A stretch of 64,000 nucleotides of DNA from Limosilactobacillus caccae (GTDB lineage Bacteria; Bacillota; Bacilli; Lactobacillales; Lactobacillaceae), in the NCBI RefSeq assembly GCF_900156885.1, contig NZ_FTOY01000011.1, positions 248,001 to 312,000 on the forward strand. Direction: 5' to 3'. Below the pieces are notes generated by a model. It was not told the origin of the DNA. It made no database searches and saw only the letters and a program-made list of their open reading frames with translations. The position numbers were made by a program, and so were the translations under genes. Shown one piece after another: positions 43,518-61,461 of the stretch. Each line of letters begins with the position of its first letter. Position 1 is the stretch's first letter.

Positions 43518-43756
43518 TAATAAGCATTGACCGAAAGAGTAGTGAAGCGGTGCCGATCAGCGAGGCCCTGGTAGTGGGAGAGGGCTAGGTAAATACTTTA
43601 TGAACGTAGCTCGGGAGCTGACATGCTGAACTAATAGTAGGGGTGTCCGGTTCATTTACCGTTATTAAATGATTAAAGTGGGGTGTCGGTTGACACTCAA
43701 ATTAGGTGGTACCGCGTTAACTCGTCCTATCGTAGTGATAGGGCGAGTTTTTTTGG
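43518..43756 (+). promoter_or_regulatory. T-box riboswitch, valine-specific
   Basis: Stem I has the AGTA loop-E motif (43548-43551) facing GAAC-GTA-G; the specifier codon GTA (43606-43608) is valine. The T-box AGGTGGTACCGCG is at 43704-43716 and can pair with the uncharged tRNA acceptor end. The competing terminator is a 13-bp stem (43719-43731 with 43737-43749) and seven T. Confidence 0.95.
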
Positions 43757-58295: not shown

Positions 58296-58832
58296 ATGTA
58301 TCGATTGTCACGACTAAAATATGTTTTCCCCATTGGCCTGTTTGTCAGCCTATTTCTTGACGGTGCCTTGAGCCATGTCTGGGCGCCACTATTTTTCCGC
58401 TATCCGTACTCGATGGTTAGCCAACTCGTTTTATTGTGGTTGGTCTTGTCATATTTCTTTGAAGATGACATTGAGATCCCCCTCATTCCCTTTGCAATTG
58501 CTGCGGGGGCGGTTTATGACCTTTACTTTTCCGGTATTCTCGGTCTATTTATCTTCTTGTACCCGTTGATTGTCGCGCTAACAAAAGTTTTAGCCCGCTA
58601 CTTTAGTTCGTCGTTCTTATCGATGATCATGATCTTTTTTGTTGACCTGGTTGTCTTTGAGACGCTTAATTACTGGGCATATTACCTTATCGGGATTACC
58701 GACGTTGGCTTTGGTGACTACTTGGTCTTTACCTTAGCACCGACACTAGCGTTAAACTTGATCTATTTTGTCGTTTTATTTTGGCCAATCCGGGCAATGT
58801 ACCGGTGGGGGCTTGATGACGGGCAAGTTTAA
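58296..58832 (+). CDS. mreD: Rod-shape protein MreD
   Basis: 178 residues with five or six membrane helices (VFPIGLFVSLFLDGALSHVW, LVLLWLVLSYFF, FAIAAGAVYDLYFSGILGLFIFLYPLIVAL and so on), the MreD family pattern. ATG 58296 is seven bases after the mreC stop with AGGAGTG upstream; the frame's earlier start at 58263 lies inside mreC. No minCD follows, unlike in many relatives: the next feature is a T-box. Confidence 0.9.
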   Translation: MYRLSRLKYVFPIGLFVSLFLDGALSHVWAPLFFRYPYSMVSQLVLLWLVLSYFFEDDIEIPLIPFAIAAGAVYDLYFSGILGLFIFLYPLIVALTKVLARYFSSSFLSMIMIFFVDLVVFETLNYWAYYLIGITDVGFGDYLVFTLAPTLALNLIYFVVLFWPIRAMYRWGLDDGQV

Positions 58833-58840
58833 AATAGTTC

Positions 58841-58869
58841 TTGACATTATGAGAATTTCATTATAGGAT
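58841..58869 (+). promoter_or_regulatory. Promoter of the T-box/amino-acid transporter operon
   Basis: TTGACA (58841-58846), 17 bases, TAGGAT (58864-58869). Confidence 0.8.
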
Positions 58870-58875
58870 ACTAAC

Positions 58876-59140
58876 AACATCATAAATGACAGTGAACAGA
58901 CTAGTAGAACTTCATGAGCAGCAAAGAGAGTCCCGTTTGGTGGGAGGGGACCTGTTCAAAAGTTTGAATCACATCTGTGAGTTGGTCTTCTGAAGTCCTA
59001 AGTAGGAAGACCCGGGGAAGCCCGTTACAGCACGGAGTTTATTTAATGAACTCACTAAGGTTATTCTTCGTGAGAAGGTAACAAGATGAGGTGGAACCGC
59101 GGAAACGCCCTCGTAGCCAGTTGGCTCGGGGGCGTTTTTC
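58876..59140 (+). promoter_or_regulatory. T-box riboswitch, first (complete) module, probably histidine
   Basis: Stem I contains AGTA (58903-58906) opposite GAAT-CAC-A; read the same way as in the valS leader of this window, the specifier is CAC (58970-58972), histidine. ACA (threonine) is the alternative reading. T-box AGGTGGAACCGCG is at 59089-59101 and the terminator stem (AACGCCC/GGGCGTT) ends in TTTTT near 59139. Confidence 0.85.
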
Positions 59141-59149
59141 TATTCCAGA

Positions 59150-59256
59150 AGATTAGATGAACTTGCCGAGATAGGTACTGTGAGGTGCCTATAAACTGAG
59201 GTGGAACCACGATTTGATCGTCCTCTAGGAAAGTCTTTTCCTAGGGGATTTTTGTT
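59150..59256 (+). promoter_or_regulatory. Second T-box module without stem I
   Basis: Only 50 bases after the first terminator comes a small stem (ATAGGTAC/GGTGCCTAT, 59170-59192), a second T-box AGGTGGAACCACG (59199-59211) and a second terminator (TCCTCTAGGAAA 59221-59232 with TTTCCTAGGGGA 59237-59248, then TTTTT). There is no room for a specifier stem. Confidence 0.85.
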
Positions 59257-59296
59257 TACTGGTATTTGATAATTAATTAACTAAGGAGGCAATACA

Positions 59297-59944
59297 ATGT
59301 CAATGCAATATATAAATGAAATCTTACCTTCATTATTTCAGGGAGCAGGTCTTACCCTCCAAATTTTCTTCTGGACGTTAGTCGGTTCTTTACCGCTCGG
59401 AATTCTTGTCAGCTTAGGGTTAACCTCAAAAATCCACCCCTTAAAGTGGCTCCTTGAAATTTACGTTTGGCTGATGCGGGGGACACCATTGCTATTGCAA
59501 TTAATCTTTGTCTTCTATGGTTTACCAATTGTCGGAATCGTCTTTGAACGTTATGACGCCGCACTAGTTGCCTTCATCCTCAACTACGCCGCCTACTTTG
59601 CGGAAATCTTCCGTGGTGGTTTTCAGTCAGTTGACCAGGGGCAGTTTGAAGCAGCGAAGGTTCTTCGTCTAAGCTACTGGCAAACCCTTCGTAAGATTAT
59701 CATCCCGCAAGTCGTTAAGATTGTTATCCCATCAATTGGGAATGAAGTGATTAACTTAGTTAAGGATTCATCATTAGTTTACGTAATCGGGCTTGGCGAC
59801 TTACTCCGGGCCGGGAACGTCGCAACCGCCCGCGATGTCACCTTAGTACCACTGCTGCTTGTCGGGTTAATTTACTTAATTCTCGTCGGGATTTGTACTT
59901 TGGTCTTACGGCAAGTCGAAAAACGCTACGCATACTTTAAGTAG
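59297..59944 (+). CDS. Amino-acid ABC transporter permease (HisM/GlnP type)
   Basis: 215-residue membrane subunit with five helices. It has the polar-amino-acid permease pattern: LTLQIFFWTLVGSLPLGILV, WLMRGTPLLLQLIFVFYGLP, and the EAA loop EAAKVLRLSYWQTLRKIIIPQVVKIVIPSIGNE that docks the ATPase. A single permease gene implies a homodimer. With the predicted His T-box upstream it is likely part of a histidine importer (the T-box-linked HisXYZ type). ATG 59297 follows AAGGAGG. Confidence 0.9.
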   Translation: MSMQYINEILPSLFQGAGLTLQIFFWTLVGSLPLGILVSLGLTSKIHPLKWLLEIYVWLMRGTPLLLQLIFVFYGLPIVGIVFERYDAALVAFILNYAAYFAEIFRGGFQSVDQGQFEAAKVLRLSYWQTLRKIIIPQVVKIVIPSIGNEVINLVKDSSLVYVIGLGDLLRAGNVATARDVTLVPLLLVGLIYLILVGICTLVLRQVEKRYAYFK

Positions 59945-59958
59945 GGGAGGAGATCACT

Positions 59959-60603
59959 ATGTTAGAAGTTCGCAATCTAAAGAAAAGTTTTGGCGGCCGG
60001 CAAATTTTAAACGGGGTTGACCTCACCGTTGAAGATGGCAAAATCCTTTGTATTGTTGGACCGTCTGGTGCTGGGAAAACAACGCTCTTGCGGTGCATAA
60101 CTGGTCTGGAAAGCCCTGATAGTGGGGAGTTCTCTATTGATGGCCGGTCATTTAACCCCCAAGGGACCGAGGCAAATGACCGGGTGATTGGGGTTGTCTT
60201 TCAGGACTTCAAGCTTTTCCCCAACCTATCAGTGATGGAAAACATTACCCTTGCGCCAACGATGGTTTTAAAAAAGGATAAAACAGCCGCAACGGCAGAA
60301 GCTAAGCGGTTGCTTGATGAACTGGGCTTGGGTGATAAGGAGGACCTTTACCCCTACCAATTGTCAGGGGGACAAAAGCAACGGGTAGCAATCGCCCGGG
60401 CATTAGCGATGAAGCCAAAGATCTTATGCTATGATGAGCCAACCTCGGCCCTTGACCCGAACCTGCGGAAGGATGTTGCTAACATTATCCTGGGCTTGAA
60501 AAAAGACGGGATGACCCAGCTGATTGTTACTCACGATTTGGACTTTGCCGAGGACGTCGCTGATGATATTTTGAAAGTTAAGCCACTTGACCAGCAAAAC
60601 TAA
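59959..60603 (+). CDS. Amino-acid ABC transporter ATP-binding protein
   Basis: 214 residues. Walker A GPSGAGKTT, Q-loop in VVFQDFKLFPNLSV, signature LSGGQKQRVAIARALAMKP, Walker B ILCYDEPTSALDP and switch His in VTHDLDFAED are complete. It is somewhat shorter than the usual 240-residue HisP/GlnQ, ending soon after the switch region. Energises uptake through the adjacent permease; 14 bases after it. Confidence 0.93.
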   Translation: MLEVRNLKKSFGGRQILNGVDLTVEDGKILCIVGPSGAGKTTLLRCITGLESPDSGEFSIDGRSFNPQGTEANDRVIGVVFQDFKLFPNLSVMENITLAPTMVLKKDKTAATAEAKRLLDELGLGDKEDLYPYQLSGGQKQRVAIARALAMKPKILCYDEPTSALDPNLRKDVANIILGLKKDGMTQLIVTHDLDFAEDVADDILKVKPLDQQN

Positions 60604-60615
60604 GGAGGGAGCAAG

Positions 60616-61461
60616 ATGAAAAGATTTAAAGCTGTTTCGCTGATCCTTTTATTAATCGTTCCCCTTTTCCTTCTCGCTGGGTGTGAAAACCTTACTAGTC
60701 GGGCAAACACCCAGGATACGTGGAGCCGGATTCAACAACGCAAGCGGGTAATCGTGGGCCTTGATGATAGCTTTGTCCCGATGGGTTACCGGCAAAAGGA
60801 CGGTAAGTTGGTCGGTTATGACATTGACCTTGCCCGGGCGGTGTTTAAGCAATACGGCATTAAGGTTGATTTTCAACCAATTGATTGGTCGATGAAGGAA
60901 ACGGAGCTGAAAAACGGCACCATTGACCTCTTATGGAATGGTTATTCAATTAACCCTGACCGGGCAAAGAAGGTGGCCTTTAGCCGCCCCTATCTAAGGA
61001 ACCGGCAGATTTTGGTAACCAAGAAGGCAAGTGATATTAAGAACCTGAATGATATGACGGGGAAGTCACTGGGGGTTCAAAGCGGGTCAACCGGGTTGAC
61101 AGTGTTGGATGAAAAGCCCAAGCTCCTAAAAGACAAGATTAAAAACAAGGAGCCGATTCAATACGATACCTTCCCGAACGCCTTTATCGACTTGAACGCT
61201 AACCGTATTCAGGGGATTTTAATGGACGAAGTATACGCTGATTACTACATTAAGCACCAACAGAACAGCCGCGATTACCGGACATATGTAAGTAAGCAGT
61301 TGCCGATGGAATCATTTGCTGTCGGGATGCGCAAGGGCGATAAAACCTTGCAAAAGAAGATTAATGACGGCTTAGGGAAGCTCCAACAGAATGGCGAATT
61401 AAGAAAGATCAATGAGAAATGGTTTGGCCAAGATAGTAACTACCTCGGCCCAGTTAACTAG
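60616..61461 (+). CDS. Amino-acid-binding lipoprotein of the ABC transporter
   Basis: 281 residues. A lipoprotein signal peptide (RFKAVSLILLLIVPLFLLAGC) places the mature protein on the outer face of the membrane through the Cys of LLAGC. The SBP_bac_3 fold follows: RVIVGLDDSFVPMGYRQKDGKLVGYDIDLARAVFKQYGI, NGTIDLLWNGYSINPDRAKKVAFSRPYL and LGVQSGSTG with the Arg and Asp typical of amino-acid pockets. Ligand is predicted to be histidine from the leader, not from the protein itself. 12 bases after the ATPase gene. Confidence 0.92.
   Translation: MKRFKAVSLILLLIVPLFLLAGCENLTSRANTQDTWSRIQQRKRVIVGLDDSFVPMGYRQKDGKLVGYDIDLARAVFKQYGIKVDFQPIDWSMKETELKNGTIDLLWNGYSINPDRAKKVAFSRPYLRNRQILVTKKASDIKNLNDMTGKSLGVQSGSTGLTVLDEKPKLLKDKIKNKEPIQYDTFPNAFIDLNANRIQGILMDEVYADYYIKHQQNSRDYRTYVSKQLPMESFAVGMRKGDKTLQKKINDGLGKLQQNGELRKINEKWFGQDSNYLGPVN

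Follow-up and report, generated by a model that had tools for sequence, protein, structure and literature searches.

The leader at positions 58883–59254 of the window, the whole 64-kb stretch of DNA analysed here, consists of a single decoding domain followed by two complete discriminator modules, and a strand located directly after its F-box is able to pair with the flank of either module. We consider it probable that this histidine-specific T-box works as one decoder with two discriminators that are used in turn on the same tRNA. We also lean, with less assurance, towards the broader view that a strand-exchange relay, in which one bound tRNA is tested twice, has been kept in Lactobacillaceae and Enterococcaceae and has possibly arisen again in Phe T-boxes of other Bacilli. 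The first-pass annotation of this DNA had recognized the two modules behind one specifier stem and missed the strand after the F-box, which we call dock-5′.

Anatomy and specificity of the leader

The decoding domain is made up of stem I with the His specifier CAC, stem II and stem IIA/B, each present once, and each of the two modules comprises a stem III, a T-box and a terminator. The features of the leader and of the operon behind it are as follows.

58841–58869, plus strand: candidate sigma-70 promoter TTGACA-17-TAGGAT, the sole match of a consensus scan in 58700–59320 (one found against 1.3 expected from shuffles, so that the match carries no evidence of function)
58883–58983, plus strand: stem I, the decoder (RF00230 alignment)
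58970–58972, plus strand: specifier CAC (His), in GAA-U-CAC-A (sequence and Rfam register)
58984–59012, plus strand: stem II with S-turn (Rfam alignment)
59013–59027, plus strand: stem IIA/B region, with the F-box end CGTTA at 59023–59027 (Rfam alignment)
59033–59047, plus strand: dock-5′ strand CGGAGUUUAUUUAAU (folds of the window; complementarity and covariation across leaders)
59049–59059, plus strand: module 1 flank AACUCACUAAG, the dock-3′ strand of module 1 plus purines (alignment A2; hairpin of −6.5 kcal/mol)
59060–59082, plus strand: stem III-1 with GUGA loop (covariation in 55 leaders)
59086–59114, plus strand: antiterminator 1, including T-box 1 at 59090–59101 (−8.2 kcal/mol)
59105–59139, plus strand: terminator 1 and U-run (hairpin 59105–59135, U-run ending at 59139; −23.4 kcal/mol, z −5.1)
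59152–59168, plus strand: module 2 flank AUUAGAUGAACUUGCCG, the dock-3′ strand of module 2 (complementarity tests and folds)
59171–59192, plus strand: stem III-2 with GUGA loop (9/9 pairs with two-sided changes in 55 leaders)
59198–59225, plus strand: antiterminator 2, including T-box 2 at 59200–59211 (−4.9 kcal/mol)
59221–59254, plus strand: terminator 2 and U-run (hairpin 59221–59248; −16.7 kcal/mol, z −3.3; found by scan)
59297–59944, plus strand: polar amino-acid ABC transporter permease, HisY-like (PF00528, TIGR01726)
59959–60603, plus strand: ABC transporter ATPase, HisZ-like (PF00005)
60616–61461, plus strand: solute-binding lipoprotein, HisX-like (PF00497)

The Rfam T-box model RF00230 matches 58883–59228 with 118.7 bits, above its gathering cut-off of 93, and its alignment reads stem I and stem II once, uses the second antiterminator and skips module 1 as an insert. 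A covariance model of the module, R1, which was built from 55 second modules including module 2 of this very leader, matches the leader twice, with 57.1 and 76.2 bits. Together, these matches confirm the earlier description of one specifier stem serving two antiterminator/terminator modules. The T-boxes also lie where they had been placed, each with a preceding A that belongs to it in addition to the 12 positions listed above; the distance from terminator 1 to T-box 2, which had been given as 50 bases, is really about 60 nt. In both modules the 3′ half of the antiterminator is overlapped by the module's own terminator, so the two structures are mutually exclusive. Terminator 2 is strong, as had been claimed, yet it is weaker than terminator 1. 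The median energies across the 96 leaders of the comparative set, where the elements were found, are −6.0 and −4.9 kcal/mol for the antiterminators of modules 1 and 2, and −20.4 and −19.0 kcal/mol for the respective terminators, the terminator search having missed one or both terminators in eight of the 96.

Only 12 nt lie between the U-run of terminator 1 and the module 2 flank, so there is no room for a stem I. With this spacer, the window leader does not have the second stem I, F-box and specifier of a fully tandem T-box; its second copy consists of a discriminator and a terminator only, which makes it a partially tandem T-box if the definition is taken from the term itself. Such T-boxes already appear in a 2020 review (PMC7583486, in the part drawn on here), against the statement that tandem T-boxes normally repeat the whole element. 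An exact CGTTA F-box is found before module 1 in all 96 alignable leaders and between the modules in none of them, in agreement with the earlier conclusion that there is no second stem I. A very short or unrecognized second decoder within module 2 might still be imagined, since in two full tandems, from Vagococcus bubulae (L080) and Enterococcus sp. 5H (L082), the second copies match the whole of RF00230, stem I included, just under the gathering score (90.6 and 90.2 bits). Against the short spacer, the missing CGTTA and a module 2 flank that is accounted for by dock pairing (see below), we regard such a decoder as very improbable.

Regarding specificity, the assignment to histidine holds: the genome has tRNA-His genes with a GTG anticodon, which matches the specifier CAC at 58970–58972. 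The motif GAA-N-CAY-R occurs 90–160 nt before T-box 1 in 83 of the 96 leaders, with CAC in 82, and the 12 inspected of the other 13 all have a CAC in that place with A or G as the next base, but lack the GAA spacing. A permease homologue starts 40–260 nt past T-box 2 in 96/96 leaders. For the permease of the window no NCBIfam equivalog model reached its cut-off, and histidine as the substrate of the transporter is itself deduced from the T-box specificity. A further T-box lies in the window at 43518–43732; it has a single module, matches with 116.4 bits and reads by eye as Val (GAA-C-GUA-G), before a gene that by eye is valS-like.

Distribution and covariation of the second module

This leader alone among the 24 T-box matches of the genome has a second T-box motif (at most one mismatch) in the stretch searched. 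The same genome holds a second His T-box (L009, also L179; G000:C7:133424–133662), which has a single module and stands before a paralogous HisX-like binding protein, and thus provides a natural single-module control.

The leader search found 98 leaders, of which L052 (degenerate, at a contig end) and L077 (163 nt) were left out. The remaining 96 distinct leaders represent eleven or more genera in the families Lactobacillaceae and Enterococcaceae, and all of them share the arrangement, with T-boxes 99–143 nt apart and no space for a second stem I. A DNA search with the whole leader covered 56 genomes, 33 of them of the same genus (own included), and returned 30 same-genus loci, the own one and those of 29 of the 32 relatives; L052 is degenerate. 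The search of related Limosilactobacillus genomes that had been suggested as a check therefore gave the two-module leader in 30 of 30 loci, from 30 of 33 genomes. We also classed 80 named permease loci by model R1 and module spacing, where the training modules of R1 come partly from the same 80 loci and those match by construction: 30 carry a pair of modules separated by no more than 143 nt, one has them at 163 nt, two are full tandems, ten have one module and 37 have none. Within the one-module class, the module of L122 lies about 900 nt upstream and that of L108 is weak (22.6 bits). The two-module permease loci belong to Limosilactobacillus, Lactiplantibacillus, Levilactobacillus, Lentilactobacillus, Companilactobacillus, Apilactobacillus, Loigolactobacillus, Lacticaseibacillus, Leuconostoc, Enterococcus, Tetragenococcus and one uncultured organism. 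Leuconostoc and Limosilactobacillus are filed under Lactobacillaceae and Tetragenococcus under Enterococcaceae; the remaining genera we take to be members of one or the other family. Finally, when 325 genomes of the order were scanned with a strict double T-box pattern, 40 of them gave one match each, and 39 of the 40 matches were shown to lie just upstream of the permease (35 by position, four more by carrying the permease). Within the order, the arrangement is tied to the histidine-uptake operon, as far as an exact pattern, which misses variants, can tell.

Covariation was calculated for 55 non-redundant leaders. With structures read off the same alignments and related sequences, which favours and inflates the counts, the 16 pairs of module 2 (stem III and helices A1 and A2) are formed in 96.5% of cells, 215 cells are changed on both sides (shuffles 60) and the covariation score is 0.707 compared with 0.229 for shuffles. 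The corresponding values for module 1 are 96.9% of cells, 228 two-sided changes (shuffles 63) and a score of 0.714 compared with 0.237, and in neither module did any of 500 shuffles reach the observed score. When the partner is slid by 1–3 columns, the score is at most 0.154 in both modules. A coarser count, the number of pairs with a two-sided change, is 12 per module and was reached by three of 500 shuffles for module 2 and by 11 for module 1. Covariation in module 2 is as strong as in module 1. In the consensus of both modules, stem III has a GUGA loop and is preceded by GAG and followed by AA.

When each module is compared with its nearest neighbour from a different genome, the two agree in module type for 51 of 55 first modules and for 47 of 55 second modules. 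This bears on the idea, listed in the first-pass annotation, that module 2 arose by duplication of module 1 and is now decaying. Module 2 has no decoder, and double T-boxes attributed to recent duplication are on record (PMC9413887, in the text used here); nevertheless, its covariation equals that of module 1, it is found across many genera, its neighbours in other genomes are of its own type and its complementarity to the dock strand is maintained. We consider decay extremely unlikely, and the earlier argument for selection stands, with the arrangement shared by every one of the 96 leaders. Between Enterococcaceae and Lactobacillaceae, the orthologous pairing of modules is the better one in 290 of 574 pairs, so that the second module may go back to a single old origin or may have arisen separately in the two families; between Limosilactobacillus and other Lactobacillaceae, the count speaks for module orthology (265 of 378).

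The foot of helix A2 differs between the modules. A U stands on the 3′ side in 27 of 55 leaders in module 1 and in 47 of 55 in module 2, with neither in two; the pair is mostly A–U in module 2 (40 of 55) and a mixture of G–C, A–U and G–U in module 1. A G–U pair at this position is named in a review as a steric sensor of the 3′-aminoacyl group. A division of labour between the modules via the A2 foot pair is suggestive only.

Two predicted alternative helices of the dock strand

The dock-5′ strand can fold back on the module 1 flank into a local hairpin, in which 59035–59042 pairs with 59046–59053 (−6.5 kcal/mol). Alternatively, it can pair with the module 2 flank at 59152–59168, over 15 bp in the window leader. 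Across the leaders, the dock/module 2 helix has a median length of 12 bp and is stronger than the pairing with module 1. In the 55 non-redundant leaders, the leader's own module 2 flank gives a median of −12.8 kcal/mol, compared with −6.6 for swapped and −7.2 for shuffled flanks, and none of 5000 permutations reaches the native pairing sum, either overall or within each of three clades (14, 14 and 27 leaders). The first flank pattern missed seven of the 96 leaders, so the column test uses 51 of the 55; a pattern-free repeat of the dock pairing test took all 96 and 55. In this fixed-register column test, 71.8% of cells are paired, compared with a mean of 55.8% and a maximum of 61.4% in 1000 swaps; there are 120 double changes against at most 90 in swaps, and sliding leaves 38 to 48% paired. 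The position of the best dock complement is less uniform. Only 33 of 55 leaders have it no more than 10 nt from the module 2 flank, the limit set in advance; it is displaced by 1 to 18 nt, a range taken from the results themselves, in 45 of 55, and lies outside the area of the flank in ten. In Leuconostoc L094, the dock/module 2 helix has only 5 bp.

Predicted folds show an exchange between the two helices, within minimum free energy folding that leaves out tRNA, pseudoknots and kinetics. At the early stages the dock is on module 1 in 82 of 96 leaders (before T-box 1) and in 81 (after terminator 1), the early state not being clearly the module 1 hairpin in 14 and 15 leaders, respectively. At the late stages it is on module 2 in 95 of 96 leaders once the flank has been made and in 93 once stem III has been made too. 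With native flanks the dock folds onto module 2 in 54 of 55 leaders, compared with 106 of 550 folds with swapped and 92 of 550 with shuffled flanks. The dock/module 2 helix is a well supported prediction of the models. Among the options raised at first, the evidence as a whole favours the one in which the tRNA bound by stem I may swing to the second T-box.

In the predicted folds, the dock/module 2 helix also frees the module 1 flank. Combined with the strength of terminator 2, this would suit a different role, in which the helix is mainly a reset or brake that undoes module 1 and lets the terminator 1 hairpin form, and module 2 lowers expression by largely constitutive attenuation. We think this improbable. 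A constitutive brake has no need of stem III covariation, a T-box bulge or flanking purines, and module 2 keeps all of these. Purine flanks, stem III and antiterminator are described as necessary and sufficient for sensing aminoacylation (PMC7583486, in the passages considered here), and the retention of the tRNA-binding bulge, stem III and purine flanks in module 2 likewise disfavours the tRNA-independent brake that had been offered as one explanation.

The full tandems L080 and L082 act as a natural negative control for dock pairing, although this control comprises two leaders only. The F-box and the dock hairpin occur twice in each of them, and cross-complementarity is low (−4.6 and −4.4 kcal/mol, or −5.9 and −4.7 with other windows). 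L077 (Lactobacillus sp. ESL0701, 2062–2460) appears to be an intermediate between full and partial tandems: its modules are 163 nt apart, a spacing too short for a stem I, and it has a second F-box and a long dock hairpin (−15.8 kcal/mol), while pairing between its first dock strand and the flank of module 2 amounts to −9.7 kcal/mol in a longer stretch and to −5.7 in shorter windows. The dock region of the single-module His T-box L009 folds with −8.4 kcal/mol.

An apparently independent T-box with one decoder and two modules is present in five genomes, all from a single other family within the class (L211–L215). Its specifier reads by eye as GAA-G-UUC-A (Phe), and aromatic amino-acid genes lie behind the two loci tested, DAHP synthase at L215 and chorismate mutase at L213. 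The strand after the F-box pairs with the module 2 flank in the folds of all five; native pairing in L211–L215 is no better than in swaps, so that dock covariation is not claimed for this type.

Proposed use of the two modules and relation to known T-boxes

From the shared dock strand, we infer a hand-off of the tRNA between the modules. First, tRNA-His would be bound by stem I, and dock-5′, paired to the module 1 flank, would hold discriminator 1 beside the decoder, where it could probe the 3′ end of the tRNA. An uncharged 3′ end would stabilize antiterminator 1, and RNA polymerase would get past terminator 1. Some 110 nt further on, the flank of module 2 would emerge and oust that of module 1 from dock-5′ by forming the longer helix, which extends into the loop of the hairpin between dock-5′ and module 1. 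Module 1 would then be free to collapse into its spent terminator hairpin, letting go of the tRNA 3′ end. Lastly, discriminator 2, docked at the same site, would probe the same tRNA, and terminator 2 would be passed only if this tRNA were still uncharged. The energies of module 2 fit a need for such contact: antiterminator 2 alone (−4.9 kcal/mol) should lose to terminator 2 (−16.7 kcal/mol), so some stabilizer of antiterminator 2 is needed, and with so large a difference expression should depend on help from tRNA at module 2. The tRNA-bound antiterminator 1 may, however, be too stable to release in time, and free tRNA could bind discriminator 2 in place of the same tRNA.

The latter possibility is the main rival to the reading of a single tRNA tested twice. 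Discriminator 2 would use a second tRNA from solution without anticodon selection, and the dock helix would merely position the module; any uncharged tRNA, or a second tRNA-His, would stabilize antiterminator 2, and the leader would sense His starvation plus, loosely, general uncharged tRNA. The discriminator of module 2 is complete, and the 3′-end contact is ranked second in affinity among the three contacts (PMC7583486, in the text at hand), both of which would suit this rival. The UGGN bulge bears on it in two directions. UGG:CCA pairing fits both modules; N is A in each (59092–59095 and 59202–59205), and C73 is present in both tRNA-His genes of the genome (L177 and L178), where it is read as paired with G−1. 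In 97 leaders, the degenerate contig-end leader L052 included, the fourth base of module 2 is variable (A 65, C 16, T 12, G 4), as a second tRNA would allow; that of module 1 (A 82, T 10, C 4, G 1) mostly mismatches C73 as well, and the fourth base of the single-module His T-box L009 likewise does not match it. The discriminator base may not be read by His T-boxes. In addition, the dock strand adjoins the single decoder and is common to both modules, which is sensible if the tRNA bound there must be reached. We judge a second tRNA from solution to be unlikely, though not negligibly so, and prefer the successive testing of one tRNA.

Compared with the RF00230 T-box, the transcriptional form with a long stem I and a stem II, the window leader shares the decoder, F-box, stem III, T-box bulge, the opposition of antiterminator and terminator and an amino-acid transport target; it differs in having two discriminators per decoder and a dock strand common to both. 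Partially tandem T-boxes, with their incomplete second copy, are presumably the same class as this leader, going by the excerpted account in PMC7583486, where their modes of action are stated as unknown. At the his transporter, five Enterococcus species have tandem His T-boxes that share with the window leader the operon and the two decision points; the portion of PMC9413887 used here reports them simply as tandem riboswitches, and some of them may be of the partial form. The full tandems L080 and L082, unlike the window leader, repeat the decoder and show no dock complementarity. Pseudo-cooperative tandem riboswitches, as presented in the part of PMC9481103 that we used, also have two serial terminators and one ligand, but each has its own aptamer, whereas the window leader has one decoder; among the architectures that the legend of Figure 1 of that paper lists, there is none in which a single sensor serves two expression platforms. 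An exchange of the dock strand is not described in the sections of PMC7583486, PMC9413887 or PMC9481103 on which we relied. The dock exchange is the new part, and the leader class itself may be on record already.

With 96 alignable leaders and a mutually exclusive helix pair, the analysis predicts how one tRNA could serve two terminators, and the open question of how partially tandem T-boxes act becomes experimentally addressable. If the relay is true, it would add a one-sensor, two-platform design to the riboswitch architectures described. Two successive tests before the transporter is made would cut leak and filter brief or mistaken signals, and the leader would then perform kinetic proofreading of starvation by one RNA.
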